A stretch of DNA of 64,000 nucleotides from Roseivirga sp. GTDB lineage: Bacteria > Bacteroidota > Bacteroidia > Cytophagales > Cyclobacteriaceae. The notes beneath the pieces are model-generated. The model made no database searches and was not told the DNA's origin. It saw nothing but the letters and a program-made list of their open reading frames with translations. The stretch is from NCBI GenBank assembly GCA_021404565.1, contig JAAWWF010000016.1, positions 124,001 through 188,000 on the forward strand, written 5' to 3'. Positions 9,629 to 29,143 of this stretch are shown here, in pieces (within the stretch, counting starts at the first letter, position 1; each line of letters starts with the position of its first letter). Both the position numbers and the translations under genes were made by a program.

Positions 9629-10633
9629 ATGATTGAAACGGATATACTGATTATTGGAGCTGGTCCTGTGGGATTATTCACCGTTTTTGAGGCAGGTTTG
9701 ATCAAACTGCGATGCCACCTTATCGACTCCCTGGGGCAGCCAGGTGGTCAATTGACAGAGATTTACCCCAAGAAACCTATTTACGACATCCCCGGCTACC
9801 CCAAGATTTTGGCCGGTGAGCTGATAGACAATCTGATGGAACAAATCGCTCCTTTTGAGCCTGGCTTCACCCTGGGTGAGCGTGCTGAGGAGATTGTAAA
9901 AGATGATGAAGGCAAGTGGATTGTGACCACGAATAAAGGCACACAGCATAAAGCTTCAGTCATTGCCATTGCCGGTGGTCTGGGCGTATTCGAACCACGC
10001 AAGCCCCCATTAAAAGGACTCGATCATTTTGAAGATCACGGGGTTGACTATATAGTGAAGGAGCCGGAGAAGTTCCGTGATAAGCATGTAGTGCTGGCAG
10101 GCGGTGGAGACTCTGCTTTGGATTGGTCCATTGAGCTTTCGCAGATTGCCAAAAGAGTAACACTGGTGCACCGCAGAGATCAGTTCAGAGGAGCGCTGGA
10201 CTCTGTAGAAAAGGCATTTGAGCTGGCGAACTCCGGCAAAATGGACATCTTTACCAACTCTCAAATCACGGCTATTGGTGGTAACGGACATCTGCAAAAT
10301 GTCACCATCACCAATAAGGCAAAAGAAGAGCAGGTAGTAGATACAGACTATTTCATTCCACTCTTTGGTCTATCTCCCAAGTTGGGGCCACTTGCCAACT
10401 GGAACCTGGGCCTGAATGGTAATGCCATTAAAGTTGATCCACTCGACTACAGCACTGATGTAGAAGGTATTTATGCGATTGGGGATATTAATGATTACCC
10501 CGGCAAACTCAAGCTGATTCTCTGTGGCTTTCATGAAGCAACACTTATGGTGCAATCTGCTTTCAAGCGCATTTACCCTGAAAAGCACCTGAGTTTTAAA
10601 TACACTACGGTAAATGGCGTTAACGCTTTCTGA
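9629..10633 (+). CDS. Ferredoxin-NADP+ reductase, thioredoxin-reductase-like type
   Basis: Flavoprotein of 334 residues that exchanges electrons between NADPH and ferredoxin or flavodoxin. FAD motif GAGPVG at 10-15, QPGGQL at 37-42, NADP-domain GGGDSALDW at 158-166, and YAIGD near residue 284. The CxxC of thioredoxin reductase is absent from the NADP domain, which identifies the YumC-type FNR rather than TrxB. A ferredoxin gene starts 7 bp after its stop, giving a complete reductase-ferredoxin pair. Confidence 0.9.
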   Translation: MIETDILIIGAGPVGLFTVFEAGLIKLRCHLIDSLGQPGGQLTEIYPKKPIYDIPGYPKILAGELIDNLMEQIAPFEPGFTLGERAEEIVKDDEGKWIVTTNKGTQHKASVIAIAGGLGVFEPRKPPLKGLDHFEDHGVDYIVKEPEKFRDKHVVLAGGGDSALDWSIELSQIAKRVTLVHRRDQFRGALDSVEKAFELANSGKMDIFTNSQITAIGGNGHLQNVTITNKAKEEQVVDTDYFIPLFGLSPKLGPLANWNLGLNGNAIKVDPLDYSTDVEGIYAIGDINDYPGKLKLILCGFHEATLMVQSAFKRIYPEKHLSFKYTTVNGVNAF

Positions 10634-10640
10634 TAAACAG

Positions 10641-10982
10641 ATGGAAGAAAATTTAATCAAGGTCAGTATTAAGGACCGCTTAGGAGAATTTCATACCATA
10701 GAAGCCCCTACTGATATGAATTTTAATATGATGGAGCTGAGCAAGGCCAACGGTTTACCGGTAAAAGGTACCTGCGGTGGTACGGCCTCCTGCGCTTCCT
10801 GTCATCTGTATGTATTGTCTGAAGATACACCGCTCAAAGAGCCTTCTGAAGAGGAGGAAGATATGCTGGACTCAGCCTTTTTTGTAGAGGACAATAGTCG
10901 ACTTGGCTGTCAGATTTATATCAGCAACGAAATGGACGGACTGGCAGTAGAGCTGGCTCCTGAGGATGAAAGTGACAACTAA
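10641..10982 (+). CDS. 2Fe-2S ferredoxin, adrenodoxin type
   Basis: A 113-residue ferredoxin with cluster ligands Cys45, Cys51, Cys54 and Cys90 in the pattern TCGGTASCASCH...C, which marks the adrenodoxin/Isc type rather than the plant type. Such ferredoxins supply electrons to cytochromes P450 or to Fe-S cluster assembly. It is acidic at the C-terminus, as expected for docking. The ATG at 10641 (MEENLIKV) is preferred; an in-frame ATG at 10614 lies within the upstream reductase gene. Confidence 0.9.
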   Translation: MEENLIKVSIKDRLGEFHTIEAPTDMNFNMMELSKANGLPVKGTCGGTASCASCHLYVLSEDTPLKEPSEEEEDMLDSAFFVEDNSRLGCQIYISNEMDGLAVELAPEDESDN

Positions 10983-14980: not shown

Positions 14981-15316
14981 ATGGGAGATTTTGCGCTGGG
15001 CACCCTCGAGGAAACGGTATTGATTATCGTGCTTATGAAAGACGAAAGCTACGGTGTGGAGATAGCCAAGGTATATGAGGCCCACATGAAACAGTCCATT
15101 TCGCTACCCGCTATTCACATGGTGCTGAAACGGCTGGGTAAGAAAGGTCTGGTGAAATCTGATTTTGGTGAACCCACTCCTGAACGGGGTGGAAAACGCA
15201 AGAAATACTACCAGGGCACACCGGCAGGTTACCGGCTGGCCGCAGAAATACAGGAAAGAAGGCAGCAAATGTGGTCAATGGTGCCTAAAACTTCTTTGAA
15301 CTATGGGCTCCTTTAA
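14981..15316 (+). CDS. PadR family transcriptional regulator
   Basis: A 111-residue winged-helix repressor: FALGTLEETVLIIVLMKDESYGVEIAKVYE, ISLPAIHMVLKRLGKKGLVKSDF and the wing ERGGKRKKYYQGTPAG are the standard PadR core. In Bacteroidota such short PadR genes usually precede FtsX-type permeases with a prefix domain, as here; the coding regions overlap by 14 bp. It probably represses its own operon through the tandem repeat just upstream. Confidence 0.92.
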   Translation: MGDFALGTLEETVLIIVLMKDESYGVEIAKVYEAHMKQSISLPAIHMVLKRLGKKGLVKSDFGEPTPERGGKRKKYYQGTPAGYRLAAEIQERRQQMWSMVPKTSLNYGLL

Positions 15317-17879
15317 GAGCCCCCCCAAGTGGGCACTCGCAGTGCTCCAAAAGGTCTGCCCTTCTGACTTGATAGAGGAGGTGGAGGGCGATTTATACGA
15401 GGCCTATCAATGGCGAAACGCTGAGCGCGGGTCCTCCTATGCTTATCGCAAATACATCTTCGAGGTATTCAGATACCTGCGCTATTACAGAATCAATATT
15501 CAAACTCAAAATAACGGTCTTATGTTACTCAAAAATTATTTTAAAACGGGCTTCCGTTTTTTATGGAAAACCCGGGGCTACTCCAGTCTTAATATCCTGG
15601 GCCTGGCCTTGGGCATTGCTGTCTGCTGGCTTGCCTACATCTTCGTCACTGACGAACACTCCTATGACAGCTTTCATAAAAACAGCGAAAGGATTTATCG
15701 CAATACGGCCTCTATCAAGGCTCAGAGCCGGGAAGATAGCTTTGCCGGATCGTCATATATTATGGGCACCGAATTCCCCGCTAATATTCCGGGGGTTGAG
15801 ATGGGTAGTCGATTCAAAAGCGGCTTTGGTTTGCTCAAACAAGGGGCGGACTATAGCAACCGGAGCTTCCACTATGCCGACCCTGATTTCTTCAAGATCT
15901 TTGATGTGGATTTTGTAACGGGGCAGCCTGGCGATTTTCAACAACCAAACTCAGTAGTAATTTCTGAAAGAATGGCCGAAAGGCTCGGTATTGGAAACGA
16001 TATCACTGATCAGCAGTTAACGCTCAGATTAGGCGGGGAAGATATCTCGTTTGCCATCAGCGGAATCTATAAAACCTTCCCTACCAATTCTTCCATACGC
16101 CCTCATATTCTTATGCCATTCAGTGTTTGGGCCAGTCGCAACGAGAGGCGTCTCACCAATTGGTTCGACATTAACATGAATACATTCTACTTGCTCAACC
16201 CAGAGGTTGATCCCGAAGATGTAGCAGAGAAAATGACTGCTCATCTACTGGCAAATGAAGATTTTGGAGATGATGATGTATCTATGGGTCTCCAGCCCCT
16301 CGAAGATATTCATCTCAACCCGGAGTTCGAAACCGGCAATGGCATCAATGCTCGCGGAGATAACCAAATGGTGCTCATTGTCAGTATAGTAGGAATACTC
16401 TGCCTGCTGATCGCCTGTGTAAATTACTCCACCTTCTCGGTTGGCAATTATATTGTGAGACTCCGTGAAGTGGCCGTTCGCAAAGTTTTCGGGGCTGAGC
16501 GTAAGGCTGTGTTCAAGCAGTTTATCACGGAAGCCTTTATCAGCGCTTTCATTGGTCTCATTTTGTCCGTGGGGCTAATCGCTCTGCTCCTGCCGGGTTT
16601 TGCAGACTACGCCAACAAAAACTACGATATGTCATTAGTCTTTAATGGTCAGATCCTATTGGGCGGATTACTCATTGTAATAGTGGTCACCTTAATATCT
16701 GGTATATATCCTGCATTGGTGCTTTCCGGCTTCAGTACCATCAACGGACTGAAAGGCAAAACGAGGCTGGGCGGAAAAAGCACCATTACCAAGGCCCTGG
16801 TCACCATTCAGTTTGGTATTTCCATCTTCCTGATTGCCGGCACCCTGTCAGTTAACAAGCAACTCAATTACCTATTGGACTTGGATCTTGGTTACTCAGG
16901 AGAGAATCTGGTGCGCATATTCGGGCCTTTTCGAAACCCGGACCTTAGTCTCAGATATAAGCAAGACCTTCTCAGCATACCCGGGGTAACCGAGGTATCT
17001 ATCGCTTCAGGCTATAATGGTACTGAAATGGAGCTGGAAGATGGCAGCACAATAGATGTGCGGCATGCGAGGGTAGATCCTGACTACCTGGAGGTAATGA
17101 GCATCGAATTGCTACAGGGCCGCAACTTCAATCCCGATATGCCAACCGATTTTTCCAACGCCATGCTGGTAAATCAGGCTTTTGTAGATAAGCTAGGCCT
17201 TAAAAACCCCATTGGCTATACCACCAAGTTTAACTATGGAGAAATGAACGGCTCGACCGTTATAGGAGTGGTGGATGACTTTTATTTCAAATCACCTAAG
17301 GGGGATATAGAGCCACTGGTAATGTACATGTCGCCCCAGTTGGTTGTATTTGACCATATGATCAAAATTAACCCGAATACCGAGGGAGTTTTAGAAGATA
17401 TGGAGGAGGTTTATCGCGAACACTTTTCTCCAACTCCCTTTAACTACTCTTTTGTGGAGGATGACATTGCCGCGGACTATGAACTGGAAAACAACATTCG
17501 AATGATATCGAAGGCGGGAGCACTGGTAGCCATTTTCCTTACAGGCCTGGGGCTGATGGGTTTTGTAGGTACACAGATTCGTCAGCGGATGAAGGAGGTA
17601 AGCGTACGCAAAGTTTTAGGGGCAGAACCAGTCCAGATCTTCAACATCTTCTCCGGTCGTTACCTTGTTCTCATCTGTATTGGTTTTGTACTGGGTATGC
17701 CCCCGGCAGTGTGGCTGGTAAAGCAGTGGCTGGCTGACTATGCCAATAATGCAGGCTTTACCTGGGACACGGGTGCCATCACCATGCTGATTATACTTGC
17801 AGTGGCAGCTCTCACCATTGTATCTCAGCTATACCGGGCTATGTTTATCAATCCCGTAGCTTATTTGAAAGAGGAGTGA
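15303..17879 (+). CDS. FtsX/MacB-type ABC transporter permease with N-terminal prefix domain
   Basis: An 858-residue permease. A soluble prefix of about 75 residues (PKWALAVLQKVCPSDLIEEVEGDLYEAY) is followed by a membrane helix near 95-115, a MacB-like periplasmic domain, an FtsX block of three helices (about 355-480), a second helix and periplasmic domain, and a final FtsX block (about 740-850). The repeated REVAVRKVFGAERKAVFKQF and KEVSVRKVLGAEPVQIFNIF are the signature loops. No ATPase gene is adjacent. These permeases are linked to export of or resistance to envelope-active compounds; the substrate is unknown. The start overlaps padR. Confidence 0.9.
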   Translation: MGSFKSPPKWALAVLQKVCPSDLIEEVEGDLYEAYQWRNAERGSSYAYRKYIFEVFRYLRYYRINIQTQNNGLMLLKNYFKTGFRFLWKTRGYSSLNILGLALGIAVCWLAYIFVTDEHSYDSFHKNSERIYRNTASIKAQSREDSFAGSSYIMGTEFPANIPGVEMGSRFKSGFGLLKQGADYSNRSFHYADPDFFKIFDVDFVTGQPGDFQQPNSVVISERMAERLGIGNDITDQQLTLRLGGEDISFAISGIYKTFPTNSSIRPHILMPFSVWASRNERRLTNWFDINMNTFYLLNPEVDPEDVAEKMTAHLLANEDFGDDDVSMGLQPLEDIHLNPEFETGNGINARGDNQMVLIVSIVGILCLLIACVNYSTFSVGNYIVRLREVAVRKVFGAERKAVFKQFITEAFISAFIGLILSVGLIALLLPGFADYANKNYDMSLVFNGQILLGGLLIVIVVTLISGIYPALVLSGFSTINGLKGKTRLGGKSTITKALVTIQFGISIFLIAGTLSVNKQLNYLLDLDLGYSGENLVRIFGPFRNPDLSLRYKQDLLSIPGVTEVSIASGYNGTEMELEDGSTIDVRHARVDPDYLEVMSIELLQGRNFNPDMPTDFSNAMLVNQAFVDKLGLKNPIGYTTKFNYGEMNGSTVIGVVDDFYFKSPKGDIEPLVMYMSPQLVVFDHMIKINPNTEGVLEDMEEVYREHFSPTPFNYSFVEDDIAADYELENNIRMISKAGALVAIFLTGLGLMGFVGTQIRQRMKEVSVRKVLGAEPVQIFNIFSGRYLVLICIGFVLGMPPAVWLVKQWLADYANNAGFTWDTGAITMLIILAVAALTIVSQLYRAMFINPVAYLKEE

Positions 17880-21988: not shown

Positions 21989-23020
21989 TCAGGGCAGGTG
22001 ATTCCAGCCCTGGGCTTGCAAAGGCACCACATTTTCACTCTTGGTTACCATGACATTACCCTTCGACTGCTCCTGTACATAGCCGATGAAATGAATATCG
22101 GGGTGCTTTTCGAGTTTTTCATACTCAGCCTGGCTGATGGTAAAAAGCAGCTCATAATCTTCACCTCCATTGAGCACGCAGGTAATTGGATCCATATTGA
22201 ATTCCACCGCAGTTTCGTAGGTCTGTCGGTCTATGGGTAGCTTATCTTCATAAATGGCAACACCGACACCTGAATTTTGAGCAAGGTGCAGGCATTCAGA
22301 AGCCAGTCCATCTGACACATCGATCATAGCACTCGGTACTATACCCAGGGTGTTCAGCTCATGGATAATATCCATGCGAGCACCGGGCTTTAGCTGACGT
22401 TGCACTATGTATCGATAATCGTCCAGCTTGGGTTGCATTTGCGGATTGGCTAGAAAAGTCTGTTTTTCGCGCTCCAATACCTGTAGTCCTACATAGGCAG
22501 CTCCCAGATCACCGGTAGCACAAATTATGTCGTTTACTTTGGCACCCTTTCGATAGGCCACTTGCTCTTTCGCCACAGTACCCAGGATAGAGATGGAAAT
22601 GACCAGGCCACTTTTAGAGGTAGTGGTATCTCCGCCAACGATGTCAAGGTTATAGTCTTTTGCAGCAGTATTCATTCCCTGATATAGCGCATCAATTGCC
22701 TCCAGCGAAAAGCGATTGCTGATACCCAAAGATACCGTGACCTGCTTTGGGACACCATTCATGGCTGCGATGTCAGATACATTGACCGCAATGGCCTTAT
22801 AGCCCAGGTGAGGCAGGGGTGCGTAGGAAAGATCAAAGTGTATGCCTTCGAGGAGCATATCTGCCGCCAAAAGTCCGTACTCCTCTCCATTGTCCACCAC
22901 TGCTGCATCATCACCAATGCCTTTTACTGTGGACACGTTGGAAGTAGTAATCCCCTTGGCGAGGTGATCAATCAAACCAAACTCTCCTAAATCCGAAAGT
23001 TCTTTTCTCTCTGTAGCCAT
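21989..23020 (-). CDS. thiL: Thiamine-monophosphate kinase
   Basis: ATP-dependent enzyme that makes thiamine diphosphate from thiamine monophosphate. The 343-residue protein has the ThiL/PurM signatures: GEFGLIDHLAKG at the N-terminus, GIGDDAAVVD, ADMLLEGIHFDL, YKAIAVNVSDIAAMNGVP, DIVGGDTTTSKSG, ATGDLGAAYVGLQVL, and MIDVSDGLASECLHLA followed by NGGEDYELLFT. Length and motif order are standard. No other thiamine genes are nearby. Confidence 0.93.
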   Translation of the reverse strand: MATERKELSDLGEFGLIDHLAKGITTSNVSTVKGIGDDAAVVDNGEEYGLLAADMLLEGIHFDLSYAPLPHLGYKAIAVNVSDIAAMNGVPKQVTVSLGISNRFSLEAIDALYQGMNTAAKDYNLDIVGGDTTTSKSGLVISISILGTVAKEQVAYRKGAKVNDIICATGDLGAAYVGLQVLEREKQTFLANPQMQPKLDDYRYIVQRQLKPGARMDIIHELNTLGIVPSAMIDVSDGLASECLHLAQNSGVGVAIYEDKLPIDRQTYETAVEFNMDPITCVLNGGEDYELLFTISQAEYEKLEKHPDIHFIGYVQEQSKGNVMVTKSENVVPLQAQGWNHLP

Positions 23021-23244: not shown

Positions 23245-25215
23245 ATGTTTGATGGCTGGTTGTCTTTTTTAGACATTTTAAATGAGAAGGCCAAAAAATG
23301 GCCGGATTGCAAGATTTTCACCTTTCTTTCAAGCAATGGAGCTGAAGTCAGAGTGTTGACTTACAAGGATTTATTGAACCACAGTCTGGACCTTGCTGTA
23401 CGGATACAACAGAAGACCAGTCCTGGACAAAGAGTACTCCTTATTTCTCAAAATCAGGCCGATTTTACCATCTCATTTTTAGGGTGCCTCATAGCAGGCG
23501 TGATCGCGGTTCCGGCCCAGACACCAAAGCGCAACAGGAAGGACCTTAAGCTGGCCAATATTATAGATAACAGTAAACCAACTCTCATCATTGGCGATGA
23601 GGAGACGCATGATAAATCAGCCCGAATCAATCCAGAACTGACTCGTATAAAATGGCTGTTTGCTAAAGTCCCCTCAAACCCGGTTTCTGCTTTCAAACCA
23701 GTCCGCATAGGCCCTGAAATGCCTGCTATGATCCAATATACCTCAGGCACCCTGGGACAGCCGAAAGGAGTAGTGCTTTCTCACGGCAATATCATGGCAA
23801 ATTCAGGATTCATTCAATCGGCAATGAGGTTGGGAGAGCAAAATTCATTTGTGAGCTGGTTGCCACACTATCACGACTTAGGGCTTTTTGGCTCTGTTCT
23901 GGAACCCATCATCAGCCAGGTACCCGCAGTATTTCTTTCGCCCTTGGACTTTGCAAAAAAGCCTCTCAACTGGCTGCGAGCTATCAGTAAATATAAAGCT
24001 ACTATCTCCGGAGCCCCCAATTTCGGCTATCAACACTGTCTTGACCGAATCAAACCAGAAGACTGCTTAGGGCTCGACCTGAGTAGTTGGAAGGTAGCCT
24101 ATTGCGGGGCTGACATGATACAAGCCACGGTTCTTGAGAGTTTTGCAAAACGCTTTGGAAATTTCGGGTTTAACAAAACTGCCTTTATGCCCTGCTATGG
24201 AATGGCAGAGGCCACCCTGATGATGACCTGTGGGCCGTATGCAGACGCTATTAAGACCATAAAGATCAGCGGTGAGGGTGACCACCATGAAAAGGAAGTA
24301 GTGAGCTGTGGGTTGGTAAACAAAGGCTGTACCATCCAGGTGGTCAAAGATCAAAGGACAGCCAATGAATATGAGGTTGGCGAAATCTGGTACAAGGGAA
24401 ATAATGTCGGGCTGGGCTACTGGAGTAATGAATCAGAAACCGAAAGCAACTTTAACCATTCATTGAATGGAGATGAGGGGTTTCTAAGAACAGGTGACTT
24501 AGGCTTTGTTGCCAATGGGGAGTTGTACCTGACCGGACGCTTAAAAGAAATAATCATTAGCAGGGGACGTAACTTCTACCCGCAGGATATTGAACATATA
24601 GCTACAGGAAGTGATGGCAGTCTGGCGGCAGGTCTGTCTACGGCCTTCGCAGTCGAAGAGCGCAATGAAGAAGGTCTTGTTATTTTACAGGAAGTCAAGC
24701 GAGCTTTCTGGAAAAAACCTGATTATTCGACCGTACTCCGCGAAATATTTAATGTGGTGAATGACCAATTGGAGCTAAGCCCCCAAACTGTTGCTCTGTT
24801 GCAACCGGGTAGTTTACCACGCACCTCCAGTGGCAAAATTTCGCGCTTGGGTGCAAAAAGGCTATATCTCGCACAAAAGTTTGATTTTTTGAAAATCGAG
24901 CGGTTCAAACCCGACAGGGCACCCGTAGCATCTCAACCGGGCTCAGGCATATCTCTCAGCCAGGTACAAGAGGAAATCATGAGCCTGGTTCAAAGCAGTG
25001 TAGATGCAACCAACGCAGGGATGGAAGCAGATACTTCCGTATTCGATTTAGGAATCGATTCTATAGCAGCAGTAGACCTGGTGGCTGCCATTGAGGAACA
25101 TTTCGGTATCGATCTGGATGCCTCTTTACTCTGGCAATTCGATACAATTGAAGAAATCTCCTGGTACATATTTGAGAACAAACTAAAGGTTGATGATCTG
25201 GGGACCCTTCGATAG
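23245..25215 (+). CDS. Fatty acyl-AMP ligase fused to an acyl carrier protein
   Basis: A 656-residue two-domain protein. Residues 1-545 are an ANL adenylating enzyme: YTSGTLGQPKGVVLSH at 165-180, WLPHYHDLGL at 205-214 (characteristic of FAALs, which make acyl-AMP for carrier proteins rather than CoA), YGMAE at 318-322, TGDLG at 416-420, GRLKE, and LPRTSSGKI with catalytic Lys531. Residues about 570-645 form an acyl carrier protein with DLGIDS, phosphopantetheine site Ser606. So it should activate a fatty acid and load its own carrier. First gene of a four-gene operon; ATG 23245 chosen over TTG 23242. Confidence 0.92.
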   Translation: MFDGWLSFLDILNEKAKKWPDCKIFTFLSSNGAEVRVLTYKDLLNHSLDLAVRIQQKTSPGQRVLLISQNQADFTISFLGCLIAGVIAVPAQTPKRNRKDLKLANIIDNSKPTLIIGDEETHDKSARINPELTRIKWLFAKVPSNPVSAFKPVRIGPEMPAMIQYTSGTLGQPKGVVLSHGNIMANSGFIQSAMRLGEQNSFVSWLPHYHDLGLFGSVLEPIISQVPAVFLSPLDFAKKPLNWLRAISKYKATISGAPNFGYQHCLDRIKPEDCLGLDLSSWKVAYCGADMIQATVLESFAKRFGNFGFNKTAFMPCYGMAEATLMMTCGPYADAIKTIKISGEGDHHEKEVVSCGLVNKGCTIQVVKDQRTANEYEVGEIWYKGNNVGLGYWSNESETESNFNHSLNGDEGFLRTGDLGFVANGELYLTGRLKEIIISRGRNFYPQDIEHIATGSDGSLAAGLSTAFAVEERNEEGLVILQEVKRAFWKKPDYSTVLREIFNVVNDQLELSPQTVALLQPGSLPRTSSGKISRLGAKRLYLAQKFDFLKIERFKPDRAPVASQPGSGISLSQVQEEIMSLVQSSVDATNAGMEADTSVFDLGIDSIAAVDLVAAIEEHFGIDLDASLLWQFDTIEEISWYIFENKLKVDDLGTLR

Positions 25216-26365
25216 ATCTTTAAAGCAGAACCCCTATCCTCATTATGACCAGCAAATGCAGGAGAGGTCATTGTTTGTAGCCCCAAGTAATATCGTATTC
25301 TCCCTGGACTATCAGTCGGTCAAATACATTTTAAATAACGAAGATGACTTTCGCTCCACTCCTCCTGCTCGTGGTGGCAAATATACTCTTCCCGGTTTCG
25401 ACAGGCTGATGGAACAATGCCTGCTCACCACTGATGGCCAAAAGCAGCAGCAAAACAGGTCTTTTATGGCCGATTATTTCAATTTAAGTGAGGCTGAAAA
25501 AAGTACCGAAACCAGTACCCTCTCAATACTCGACAGGCTGGGAGATCGCCCCTTTGACCTAATCCAGGAATTGGTTCAGCCTGTGGTGGCAGGCACCCTC
25601 ATGGAAATACTGGGAATAGCACCGGAGAATCGGGCAAGGGCGATTGAATGGTCTGGCAGGCTGCTGAGAAGTGTCGATATCTTTGTGACCAGCAAAAAGT
25701 ATCTGGAAATGGAAAAAGCCAGCCTTGCATTTGAAAGCTTTGTCCACCGATCCATTGAAGACCAAACCTGTGGTGAGTTTCTGGAGCATGTTTTCAATGG
25801 GCTTAGTGAGCAGGAATCGACAACAGAGGCCTTATCAAAAACTGCTTCTTATACGGCCACCCTTCTGTTTACAGGAATCAATACGGCTGTCGGCCTCATT
25901 GGAAACATCGTACATGAGTTGCTATCAAAACCGAAACTTGGGGAGGAGTTCCAAAATATGAATAGCAGGCAAGGGGAGATATCTTCCCGGGCTTTGGAAG
26001 AGCTTATTAGACTTTGCCCGTCCGTGCACTTCACCTTCAGGTTTGCCAGCAAAGCCACAGATATAGAAGACCTGCATGTCAAGAAGGATCAGATTATTGC
26101 CCTATGCCTGGCTTCTGCCAACCGTGACGCCAGGGTATTTGAGGACCCTCATAGATACCTGTTCGATCGGAACCCAAACCCACACCTGTCTTTTGGAACA
26201 GGCAGGCACTATTGTTTTGGTGCAAAACTGGCTCGCATGCAGGTGAAGACAGTACTCTCCTGCCTGATTGACAGATTACCAAACCTGCAGCTCAGTGCAG
26301 AACCGACTTACATGAATTATAATTTTGTGAGAGCTCCTGAATCTTTAATGATAAAGGCAATTTAA
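25193..26365 (+). CDS. Cytochrome P450
   Basis: Soluble bacterial-type P450 of 390 residues. Heme-binding loop FGTGRHYCFGAKLAR with ligand Cys341, ExxR motif Glu270-Arg273, and I-helix FTGINTAVG at 226-234. In the I-helix the usual acidic residue before the threonine is Asn230 (Gly-Ile-Asn-Thr), which is atypical for a hydroxylase. It overlaps the FAAL-ACP gene by 23 bp and precedes an MBOAT gene by 6 bp, so its substrate is probably the acyl chain held on the carrier domain or the product of the MBOAT. Electrons may come from the ferredoxin/reductase at 9629-10982. Confidence 0.93.
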   Translation: MIWGPFDRSLKQNPYPHYDQQMQERSLFVAPSNIVFSLDYQSVKYILNNEDDFRSTPPARGGKYTLPGFDRLMEQCLLTTDGQKQQQNRSFMADYFNLSEAEKSTETSTLSILDRLGDRPFDLIQELVQPVVAGTLMEILGIAPENRARAIEWSGRLLRSVDIFVTSKKYLEMEKASLAFESFVHRSIEDQTCGEFLEHVFNGLSEQESTTEALSKTASYTATLLFTGINTAVGLIGNIVHELLSKPKLGEEFQNMNSRQGEISSRALEELIRLCPSVHFTFRFASKATDIEDLHVKKDQIIALCLASANRDARVFEDPHRYLFDRNPNPHLSFGTGRHYCFGAKLARMQVKTVLSCLIDRLPNLQLSAEPTYMNYNFVRAPESLMIKAI

Positions 26366-26371
26366 ACTTCC

Positions 26372-27817
26372 ATGACCTTTATCTCCTTTGAGTTTCTTTT
26401 ATTCATTACAGGGTGCCTGGTCATCTATTTTGCTATCTCCTCGCGCTGGAAATGGCTTTGGCTATTGGTTTGCAGCTACTTTTTTTATGGCTACCACAAC
26501 CTCATCTATGTACCGCTGCTTATGTTCAGTACAGTAGTTGACTATTGGATCGGGCTTAAAATAGGCAGCACTGAAAAGCCTATATTAAGAAAGCGATGGC
26601 TTTATCTCAGCATTTTTGTAAACCTCTCCCTCCTGGCCTTTTTTAAGTACTTCAACTTCTTCAACGGAGAGTTTCAAGGTCTGGCAGGCTATCTTGGCAT
26701 GCGCGTGTCCTCCTTTCAGCATAACTATCTGCTGCCTCTGGGGATTTCCTTTTATACTTTTCAGACTTTGGGATACAGCATCGATGTTTACAGAAAGTAT
26801 ATCAAACCTGAAAAGCACATTGGTAAATATGCCTTATATGTTAGCTTCTTTCCTCAGCTCATAGCAGGTCCTATTGAGCGAGGCAGAAAACTCCTTCCCC
26901 AGTTAAGCCTTCAAGTTTCGTTCGACTATCAGCGTACCGTGGAAGGACTCCAGCTGATCTTATGGGGGCTTTTCAAAAAAATGGTGATTGCTGACCGCCT
27001 GGGGTTGTATGTAAACCAGATCTTTGATATTTCAAATAACCATCAGGGACCTGCAGTCATTTTTGGAGCCTTTTTGTTCGGCTTACAAATTCTATTCGAT
27101 TTTGCGGCTTACAGCGAAATCGCCATTGGGCTGGCCCGTATTCTGGGAGTGAAGCTTTCCAGGAATTTTGGCAATGTCAGTTTCTTTACTTCACCTGTAC
27201 ATATGTGGAACAACTGGCATATTACCCTTACTTCATGGTTTCGGGACTATGTTTACTTTCCGCTTACCAGGTCAAACAAGAATAAATGGGCTTCGCATTC
27301 AGCCTTGATTATAACCTTTCTCATCACCGGACTCTGGCACGGAGCCTCCTGGGGTTTTATCATATGGGGAGGACTTCATGGTATATACCTGGCATTCGAT
27401 CATATTACCGCTCAGAGCCGAAACCAATTGTATACATCCATTGGCCTTGAAAAGAACTCCCGGGTCAGGCGTTTGATTGGCATTCTGGTATTTCTTCCGT
27501 TCAATATACTCACTGGCTTTTTCTTTAGAGCAAGCTCCACCTCGAACGCATTCACATTAATTGAACGATCTCTCGATTGGTCGTCTGTTTACCTGTATAT
27601 CAGGACAGTCGGGGCAGCCGAACTATTGCTTATAATCAGTTTGCTGATAGGGGTCGAGTTCGTAAACAATAAATTGGGAAAGAGGCAAATCCATCACTTT
27701 CTTGTTGAGAAGCCTACACACGTGCGTTGGTTATTTTATTTTGTGTTGACAGAAGCAATTCTATTATTAAGATTATCTGAGGTGGAAAAATCCCCTTTTA
27801 TATATTTTGATTTCTGA
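26372..27817 (+). CDS. MBOAT family O-acyltransferase (AlgI/DltB-like)
   Basis: Polytopic membrane protein of 481 residues with about 10 or more helices. It carries the MBOAT core: LLPLGISFYTFQTLGYSIDVYR, FFPQLIAGPIER, MWNNWHITLTSWFRDYVYFPL with His283, and the catalytic histidine His323 in GLWHGASWGFIIWGG. Relatives AlgI, PatA and DltB move acyl groups across the membrane onto polysaccharides or peptidoglycan-linked polymers. Here the donor is likely the acyl-ACP made by the upstream FAAL-ACP. An SGNH protein gene follows after 1 bp. Confidence 0.93.
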   Translation: MTFISFEFLLFITGCLVIYFAISSRWKWLWLLVCSYFFYGYHNLIYVPLLMFSTVVDYWIGLKIGSTEKPILRKRWLYLSIFVNLSLLAFFKYFNFFNGEFQGLAGYLGMRVSSFQHNYLLPLGISFYTFQTLGYSIDVYRKYIKPEKHIGKYALYVSFFPQLIAGPIERGRKLLPQLSLQVSFDYQRTVEGLQLILWGLFKKMVIADRLGLYVNQIFDISNNHQGPAVIFGAFLFGLQILFDFAAYSEIAIGLARILGVKLSRNFGNVSFFTSPVHMWNNWHITLTSWFRDYVYFPLTRSNKNKWASHSALIITFLITGLWHGASWGFIIWGGLHGIYLAFDHITAQSRNQLYTSIGLEKNSRVRRLIGILVFLPFNILTGFFFRASSTSNAFTLIERSLDWSSVYLYIRTVGAAELLLIISLLIGVEFVNNKLGKRQIHHFLVEKPTHVRWLFYFVLTEAILLLRLSEVEKSPFIYFDF

Positions 27818-27818
27818 T

Positions 27819-28718
27819 ATGACACGGTTATTAAAAAAAGGACTGTTTTTCGCCTTGCTTACTCTGGTTCCCTATGGAGCTTTACAGTATTTCATAATAA
27901 CCAACTATGACCCTATTTATACCAAGCTGGTAGGAAAGCACAAATTCGTGATTACGGGTGTATCCAGAGCAAAAATAGGTCTTTCACCTATGATCCTGCA
28001 TGAGGAAATGGAACTTAAAGCCGTGCCTCAAAACCTGGCAATTTCCAACCTTTCAACCCCCTATGGTCCATTCTATTATGCCTTTCTTCAGAAAAAAATC
28101 ACAATTCAAGAGGCCGCTGACCACTTCCACCTGATATCAGTTTCTCCAGTCTCAATTATGGATGTAGATGACACTCTGACTTATAGCCGTGAATCTCATG
28201 ACCTCATCTATAAGCTACAATCTGTATCTAACCGTCCAAATCTGGAATATGTATTTAGAATACCATCATTTGAGATGCTTCACAACCAGATTAGACTTTC
28301 TCTGACTGAATCACAAATGGTTCTCAAAATGCATAATACCGGATGGATGGAGGTTAACCCTAAAGGAGATTTCCGGATGTCAATCAATTACATAGATGCC
28401 CCCTATAGGCCTAGTTTGGAAAGGGAAGAGTACCTGAGAAAGACCATTAGCCTTTTGGAGAAAACAGGTAACGTTTTTCTAATTAGAATGCCTGTTAGCA
28501 GCAGTATGTTGCAAATTGAAAAAAATCTCTACCCTAATTTTGACGAGGTCATCACAAAAATTGCCCATGAGTCCTCAGTACCTTATCTTGATTATACGGC
28601 CGATGGAGACAGCTACGAATTCTATGATAACCCGGGTCATCATCTTACCGGCAAAAGTGCCAGAGATTTCACACGAGTTGTAACTAAGGACCTCAAAAAG
28701 ATTCTTTCAGAGGATTAA
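27819..28718 (+). CDS. SGNH-hydrolase-like membrane-anchored protein (DltD/AlgX-like partner of MBOAT)
   Basis: A 299-residue protein with one N-terminal membrane helix (about 8-28) and a large extracytoplasmic domain. VITGVSRAKIG at 44-54 is in the position of the SGNH nucleophile block (Gly-x-Ser, Ser49), and NPGHHLTGKSARDF near the C-terminus resembles the Asp-x-x-His block of DltD, AlgX and similar proteins. Overall sequence is divergent and I cannot prove catalysis. The gene starts 1 bp after the MBOAT stop, the usual pairing for acyl transfer outside the membrane. The in-frame TTG at 27807 lies inside the MBOAT gene. Confidence 0.7.
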   Translation: MTRLLKKGLFFALLTLVPYGALQYFIITNYDPIYTKLVGKHKFVITGVSRAKIGLSPMILHEEMELKAVPQNLAISNLSTPYGPFYYAFLQKKITIQEAADHFHLISVSPVSIMDVDDTLTYSRESHDLIYKLQSVSNRPNLEYVFRIPSFEMLHNQIRLSLTESQMVLKMHNTGWMEVNPKGDFRMSINYIDAPYRPSLEREEYLRKTISLLEKTGNVFLIRMPVSSSMLQIEKNLYPNFDEVITKIAHESSVPYLDYTADGDSYEFYDNPGHHLTGKSARDFTRVVTKDLKKILSED

Positions 28719-28741: not shown

Positions 28742-29143
28742 TCACCTAATCTCCTGACAAAGCTCGATCAATACCCCATTGGTAGTTTTTGGGTGAAGAA
28801 AACACACGAGTTTGTTGTCTGCGCCCTTTCTCGGAGTTTCATTGATTATGATAAACTCTTCTTCCTTAAGCCTGGCAATCTCGGCATGAATATCTTCTAC
28901 ATCAAAGGCAATATGATGGATACCCTCCCCTCTCTTTTCAAGGAATTTGGCTATGGGACTGTCAGGACCGGAGGCTTCCAGCAATTCAATCTTGTTGGGA
29001 CCAACCTGAAAAAAAGAGGTGTTCACCCCTTCAGAGGCTACTTTCTCCAGTTTATAGTGCGATTCCCCAAAGAGTTTGGCAAAAAGGTCATTAGAGGATT
29101 CCAGGCTTTTTACGGCAATTCCAATGTGCTCAATCTTATGCAT
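28742..29143 (-). CDS. mce: Methylmalonyl-CoA epimerase
   Basis: VOC-fold metalloenzyme of 133 residues that interconverts (R)- and (S)-methylmalonyl-CoA, linking propionyl-CoA to succinyl-CoA. The conserved N-terminal KIEHIGIAVKSLE with metal ligand His6, FFQVGPNKIELLE, and GEGIHHIAFDVEDI are all present, followed by ETPRKGADNKLVCFLHPKTTNGVLIELCQ, which is the family ending. Length is standard. It stands alone here. Confidence 0.93.
   Translation of the reverse strand: MHKIEHIGIAVKSLESSNDLFAKLFGESHYKLEKVASEGVNTSFFQVGPNKIELLEASGPDSPIAKFLEKRGEGIHHIAFDVEDIHAEIARLKEEEFIIINETPRKGADNKLVCFLHPKTTNGVLIELCQEIR

Follow-up and report, generated by a model that had tools for sequence, protein, structure and literature searches.

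The closest described relatives of the system reported here are the Dlt pathway (DltA, DltC, DltB, DltX and DltD) and O-acetylation of the PatA–PatB/AlgI type, each of which joins a membrane-bound O-acyltransferase (MBOAT) to a protein of the SGNH type. Pairs of a fatty acyl-AMP ligase (FAAL) and an acyl carrier protein (ACP) provide starter units in lipopeptide and polyketide pathways, for example DptE/F. According to the available portion of PMC12148441, PatA moves acetyl to the tyrosine of a C-terminal peptide bearing FxYxxF, a motif defined there, and PatB can accept acetyl from such a peptide; DltB instead uses an acyl carrier and DltX, and the Pat/Alg pathways are said to be without a carrier protein and to use acyl-CoA. 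Among cytochromes P450, BioI (CYP107H1) cleaves ACP-linked fatty acids (PMC10741444, in the portion available). Here we compare these systems with an operon found in 64,000 nucleotides of Roseivirga sp. DNA (hereafter the window; assembly GCA_021404565.1, contig JAAWWF010000016.1, positions 124,001–188,000), from an 8.57 Mb genome (G000) of the order Cytophagales.

The operon comprises four plus-strand genes at 23245–28718, encoding a FAAL fused to an ACP, a P450, an MBOAT and an SGNH-like protein with one helix. The first two overlap by 23 bp, and gaps of 6 bp and 1 bp separate P450 from MBOAT and MBOAT from SGNH gene. The original prediction, made from the letters alone, had described four co-directional genes of these families with this spacing; the layout is exact, and Pfam agrees on the families (E-values of 4.3e-58 for AMP-binding, 6.4e-14 for PP-binding, 6.2e-20 for p450 and 2.9e-21 for MBOAT). 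We propose, with a probability of roughly 0.6, that the operon represents a conserved Cytophagales system which would hand an acyl group, once modified by the P450, to an acceptor outside the cytoplasm. We infer the acyl group, its oxidation and the acceptor; the gene set itself is observed.

Results

Conservation of the gene set

ACP, P450, MBOAT and SGNH genes constitute the real core of the system, and the ligase varies. In another family of the order, genome G186 encodes FAAL, ACP, P450, MBOAT and SGNH protein as separate genes, in an order identical to that of the window (36, 31, 27, 37 and 19% identity, respectively). A search from the G186 P450 gave a match in 33 of 198 genomes and returned 30 loci. 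Within 1.5 kb of these 30 P450s, hidden Markov models (HMMs) found an ACP at every locus (30/30), an MBOAT at 29 and an AMP ligase at 17, with the same counts from tblastn using the proteins of locus L154. Where wider flanks were fetched, the order ligase–ACP–P450–MBOAT–SGNH is seen at seven loci (the window, L022, L154, L202, L204, L208 and L210) and the core without an upstream ligase at seven more (L155, L199–L201, L205, L207 and L209). The SGNH gene adjoins the MBOAT gene in 16/16 wide-flank loci having both P450 and MBOAT; the ligase in these is upstream in seven, at the far end in one (L155) and not found in eight, including the divergently arranged L092 and L156. The L155 ligase is of CoA-ligase type and was not counted as a FAAL. 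The gene immediately after the SGNH gene encodes a sodium:solute symporter at L154 (4028–5422) and L208 (9416–10810).

Sister species G009 has the four genes at the identical site (61, 57, 77 and 48% identical, in gene order), within flanking genes that are 73–99% identical, one antisense open reading frame (ORF) pair left out. Of 17 other members of the genus, eight have the edge genes ThiL and glyoxalase next to each other, at a distance of 78–278 bp as measured between BLAST edges; three have a contig that breaks off beside ThiL, and six show neither glyoxalase nor operon genes within 1.5 kb. None of these 17 yields a P450 match at E ≤ 1e-20. The empty site and the lack of the P450 imply that the operon came or went as a unit, by gain here or by loss in the others. 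The two genomes that carry the operon measure 8.6 and 8.2 Mb, compared with 2.1–5.8 Mb in the 17 others. A contig scan found the sister species alone, and a class-wide scan with a window-type P450 profile found the window's genome alone (1/395). A word-limited search through 5.8 billion proteins brought up four other close relatives of the P450. For three of the four, a FAAL–ACP relative comes with a longest contig of the same size (162952, 76910 and 5742), which suggests that the FAAL–ACP and P450 genes of these three lie together.

Control loci behave differently. A phylum-wide sample of P450s (395 genomes) gave 20 non-own loci, none with an ACP or MBOAT; P450 or ACP genes accompany 0/30 loci matching an ordinary MBOAT best and 2/29 matching the window MBOAT best, and the two exceptions are themselves members, with ACP–P450 divergent from MBOAT–SGNH. 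Chance neighbourhood is thereby ruled out, and sister synteny together with recurrence in other genera likewise marks the set as no accident. Searching genomes for the four families in one operon, as had been suggested, thus recovered order and co-occurrence kept over genera and families. The original prediction also spoke of a Dlt-like set with an inserted P450, a reading supported in part: the families of ligase, carrier, MBOAT and SGNH protein stand, whereas the P450 proves to belong to the constant core, which removes it as a late insert, and it is the ligase that varies (17/30).

A separate group of MBOATs

MBOAT residues His283 and His323 align with DltB H289 and H336, of which His336 is the named active site, and the protein ends in FIYFDF, an instance of the FxYxxF acyl-shuttle motif. 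In a tree of 81 MBOATs, a single branch sets all 18 P450-linked rows apart from the rest (bootstrap 100; Shimodaira–Hasegawa-like approximate likelihood-ratio test, SH-aLRT, 99), and the branch has SH-aLRT 99 in two further trees. The other 63 rows lack a P450 link, as checked mostly by HMMs and, for L091–L122, only by BLAST of ORFs; some come from the same families and genomes as the linked ones. Three duplicates had been removed before the residue counts and the 81-row tree (84 to 81), eight rows were thinned before an earlier tree, and the 30 P450 loci contributed 12 MBOATs and 13 P450s to the trees. The tree is unrooted and the window pair lies nearest the split, so a single origin of linked MBOATs is allowed, not proven.

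Five residues follow the same division. Unlinked MBOATs have Pro269 in 63/63, Arg281 in 62/63, Gly299 in 62/63, Gly300 in 62/63 and Trp382 in 59/63, as opposed to 0/18, 0/18, 1/18, 2/18 and 0/18 of the linked proteins; the window MBOAT has V, N, T, R and G at these places. We infer that the five residues mark the acetyl-CoA subtype. Position 300 is Lys or Arg in 16/18 linked MBOATs (Gly in 62/63 unlinked) and aligns, over a small gap, with DltB stretch 305–312, the DltC docking site; this change may represent adaptation to a carrier protein. DltB retains Arg at position 281, so loss of Arg281 is no general mark of carrier use.

These data bear on whether an ordinary acetyl-CoA-dependent polysaccharide O-acetyltransferase (MBOAT–SGNH) merely shares its operon, by chance, with an unrelated FAAL–ACP–P450 lipid pathway. 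Such an arrangement would draw on the abundance of MBOATs in the window's family (102/196 genomes at E ≤ 1e-60), mostly without adjoining carrier genes, and on the window hexapeptide, which is of the common FIYFQF type. The repeated linkage over genera, the negative controls, the separate MBOAT group and the shared loss of near-invariant residues all speak against it, and we regard it as quite improbable. When asked whether it belongs with ordinary polysaccharide-type acyltransferases, the window MBOAT instead groups with the P450-linked proteins, by tree and by residues. Elsewhere in the window's genome (L100:7527–11066), MaoC-like and SDR genes precede another MBOAT–SGNH pair, perhaps a second modified-acyl system.

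Comparison with described systems

The resemblance to Dlt lies in the ligase, carrier, MBOAT and SGNH functions, in the conserved MBOAT catalytic His and in a donor that would be carrier bound. The differences are a FAAL in place of a D-Ala ligase, the P450 in the core, the Bacteroidota host, and the shuttle tyrosine, here on the MBOAT itself and in Dlt on DltX. Models confirm the distance, with 100.8 bits for the window ligase against DltA model NF003417 (cut-off 476) and 140.7 bits for the MBOAT against DltB model TIGR04091 (cut-off 375), far under threshold, and Dlt membership was rejected. The gaps of 6 and 1 bp leave no room for a DltX gene inside the operon (small ORFs elsewhere were not searched). 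This is not a Dlt system: the acyl-shuttle peptide sits on the MBOAT's own C terminus, as in PatA.

O-acetylation of the PatA–PatB/AlgI type shares an MBOAT that has the FxYxxF shuttle at its C terminus and an SGNH gene after it, but differs in that the window system is linked to a carrier and a P450 and that its MBOAT lacks Pro269, Arg281, Gly299–Gly300 and Trp382 of the ordinary MBOATs compared. FAAL–ACP starter units such as DptE/F share the FAAL and ACP pair, but the operon genes include no non-ribosomal peptide synthetase (NRPS) or polyketide synthase (PKS), and the chain would pass to an MBOAT. The system resembles Dlt plus Pat/Alg and fits neither subtype. Among the matches listed from open-licence PMC literature, judged by titles and abstract beginnings, the whole gene set is not described, and within that scope the combination and the MBOAT group are new; each part is known.

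The ligase and carrier

Top Protein Data Bank (PDB) matches of the FAAL–ACP protein are 7r7g (401 bits) and 3kxw (370 bits), presumably FAAL domains. Chains named FAAL or FadD23/28/32 follow at 254–178 bits, and chains 5d6j, 5icr and 7wua, named acyl-CoA synthase but which we take to be FadD32-like FAALs, at 233–201 bits; no chain bearing the name of an ordinary CoA ligase appears before 5x8f, at only 81 bits. NCBIfam FAAL models score 379 and 333 bits, short of the 600 and 775 that these models require. The segment matching the FAAL-specific helix pairs gap-free with that helix in EcFAAL (3pbk); its placement there assumes that chain index and residue number differ by one. Judged by these matches, the ligase is of the FAAL type and not a CoA ligase, and the PDB ranking, helix alignment and Pfam domains all bear out the earlier reading of a FAAL fused to an ACP. 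The fusion extends to the sister species and to relatives P0040–P0042, which carry both domains within 646–656 residues. The predicted phosphopantetheine site, Ser606, is the serine of GIDSIA, and the window's genome has two phosphopantetheinyl transferase (PF01648) matches above cut-off.

The P450

The window P450 possesses the Cys ligand, the ExxR motif and FGTGRHYCFG. Cys ligand and I-helix Thr are retained in 26/26 P450s counted as ACP-adjacent, two of which (P0010 and P0011) were entered as such, here and in the P450 tree, on the strength of a FAAL–ACP relative on an equal-size contig, their neighbourhoods themselves not having been seen. With a profile of the family, the best PDB match is BioI (161 bits, compared with 152 for the next), and an ACP domain or gene adjoins the P450 of the window system. 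The match is a distant one, and the P450s differ in their linkage to MBOAT–SGNH and, in the window clade, in lacking the I-helix acid. The P450 tree does not settle a single origin of ACP-adjacent P450s.

BioI kinship raises the further reading that the operon makes a shortened or dicarboxylic acyl-ACP by C–C cleavage, as for pimelate, with MBOAT–SGNH in a secondary part. The distant loci retain the MBOAT far more strictly (29/30) than the ligase (17/30), and the scan of flanking proteins turned up no recognisable biotin gene (biotin genes elsewhere in the genome lay outside its scope). We think this reading very improbable.

ACP–P450 pairs also exist with no MBOAT in the fetched stretch (L157, L158, L159, L165 and L166), beside GNAT, beta-lactamase-like and DUF4915 genes; they suggest that carrier-coupled P450s form a wider module in the window's family. 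In the window, about 12 kb upstream of the operon, a gene for a thioredoxin-reductase-like flavoprotein (9629–10633) overlaps one for an ISC-like 2Fe–2S ferredoxin (10614–10982; both sub-threshold model matches), and the pair are candidate redox partners for the P450. Ferredoxin-like genes are numerous, with 14 Fer2 matches in the window's genome.

The SGNH-like protein

Neither Pfam nor NCBIfam gives the fourth protein a match at E ≤ 0.1. An alignment of 13 relatives shows no variation at Ser49, Asn72 or His275, and a PDB search with the profile built from it matches SGNH thioesterases (E 5.5e-5), with no chain named DltD, PatB or AlgX among the hits. The only hydrophobic stretch spans residues 8–26. 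On these grounds the protein is a member of the SGNH superfamily, and its SGNH-like character and single helix are as first claimed. A word-limited protein search with the window SGNH protein returned itself and one relative.

Features and surroundings of the operon

Positions of the operon, its principal residues and the edges of its insertion site are collected in Table 1. Further off in the window (15303–17879) lies an ADOP-type duplicated permease, called from a sub-threshold match and bearing a weak resemblance to the darobactin export permease DarB.

Table 1 Features of the operon and its insertion site, in window coordinates.
Feature	Position	Strand	Evidence
FAAL fused to ACP, 656 aa	23245–25215	+	Pfam AMP-binding and PP-binding; PDB matches
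Ligase part (about residues 1–550)		+	within FAAL–ACP gene
ACP part	about 24976–25161	+	within FAAL–ACP gene
SPLDFAKKP (residues 232–240), aligned with FAAL-specific helix	23938–23964	+	ungapped against 3pbk (EcFAAL) R251–P259 helix
Ser606, predicted phosphopantetheine site (GIDSIA)	25060–25062	+	motif; PF00550 match
Cytochrome P450, 390 aa (Cys341 at 26213–26215)	25193–26365	+	Pfam p450; ExxR; FGTGRHYCFG
Asn230 of P450, at I-helix acid position	25880–25882	+	alignment of ACP-adjacent P450s
MBOAT, 481 aa (His283; His323 at 27338–27340)	26372–27817	+	PF03062; sub-threshold DltB model matches
C-terminal acyl-shuttle hexapeptide of MBOAT, FIYFDF (Tyr478)	27797–27814	+	motif FxYxxF
SGNH-like protein, 299 aa (Ser49 at 27963–27965; His275 at 28641–28643)	27819–28718	+	conserved residues; profile search
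ThiL (thiamine-phosphate kinase), left edge of insertion site, outside system	21989–23020	-	TIGR01379, 320 bits, above cut-off
Glyoxalase-family gene, right edge of insertion site, outside system	28742–29143	-	site comparison

Discussion

The gene set suggests a relay. The FAAL, as its family implies, would adenylate an acid, probably a fatty one, and load it onto the phosphopantetheine of the fused ACP. The constant ACP–P450 pairing and the kinship to BioI suggest that the P450 oxidises the carrier-bound chain. The MBOAT would then pick the acyl group off the ACP at the cytoplasmic face, His323 shifting it to Tyr478 of FIYFDF; Tyr478 would hand it to Ser49 of the SGNH protein, and from the SGNH protein it may pass to a glycan at the surface or to another acceptor with a hydroxyl group. 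The steps from MBOAT through Tyr478 to SGNH protein are read from motifs, by analogy to the mechanism established for DltB–DltX–DltD and PatA–PatB.

The acceptor might instead be a small exported lipid or metabolite and not an envelope polymer, reached by the same carrier, P450 and MBOAT–SGNH route. FAALs and carriers are known in polyketide and peptide natural-product pathways (PMC11837247, in the portion available), ACP–P450 pairs do occur without an adjoining MBOAT, and the flanking proteins scanned around the window operon include no recognised glycan gene. Yet the four genes include no NRPS, PKS or export gene, and the MBOAT–SGNH pairs discussed in the available portion of PMC12148441 acylate envelope polymers. 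Envelope genes also lie near two members, with Wzi-like and epimerase genes beside L201 and a glycosyltransferase gene beside L204, though others have none (L199 adjoins a sensor–regulator pair). A small acceptor therefore appears unlikely to us.

Several observations, the lack of a recognised glycan gene among them, weigh against the proposal that a P450-modified acyl group is delivered to an acceptor outside the cytoplasm. The HMMs were built in part from the loci they counted; the 30 P450 loci come from four genera, with 24/30 from one genus, and so represent few independent events. A first P450 survey, of 19 non-own loci, found an ACP at 10/19 and an MBOAT at 5/19; the MBOAT control loci were best matches to an ordinary or the window MBOAT; and L203 and L206 are FAAL–ACP–P450 loci with no MBOAT in the fetched stretch. 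The five diagnostic MBOAT residues were chosen by scanning for differences between linked and unlinked proteins, and 15/18 linked MBOATs have Tyr at place 2 of the hexapeptide (xYYxxF) where window and sister have the ordinary Ile (FIYFxF).

The enzymes themselves add to this list. The FAAL-specific insertion segment is present and looks shorter than that of EcFAAL in the alignment, and the FAAL is 36–37% identical to the FAALs of distant members and 35–41% to others, an unspecific kinship. The I-helix acid position of the P450 is N or S in 4/4 window-clade proteins (Asn230 in the window) and Glu in 22/22 other P450s counted as ACP-adjacent; without this acid the window P450 is possibly altered in activity, and oxygen chemistry in its clade may be unusual. 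A single-sequence search puts BioI sixth, and the P450 tree (26/54 rows ACP-adjacent) needs three label changes, leaving placement of the window clade unsettled. Finally, most relatives of the window SGNH protein carry D-xx-H or N-xx-H at the place of its D-x4-H, and the two extra residues between Asp and His possibly alter the activity of the window protein as well.

Set beside Dlt and Pat/Alg, the proposed delivery of a P450-modified acyl group could amount to a third kind of transmembrane acyl delivery, in which a P450 remodels the carrier-bound acyl group, a carrier-adapted MBOAT lineage exports it through a tyrosine relay and the surface receives oxidised fatty acyls. We put this forward tentatively, as a possibility somewhat short of even odds. 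If it is true, the existence of a second branch, fed by a carrier and equipped with a P450 and a distinct MBOAT group, would mean that such machinery is able to deliver acyl groups that have been tailored and are probably long. The members of the system, some fused and others unfused, some with the ligase and others lacking it, are natural material for testing how the MBOAT discriminates between carrier and CoA. The reading predicts that lipid-decorated surface molecules, so far unrecognised, may exist in the Cytophagales.

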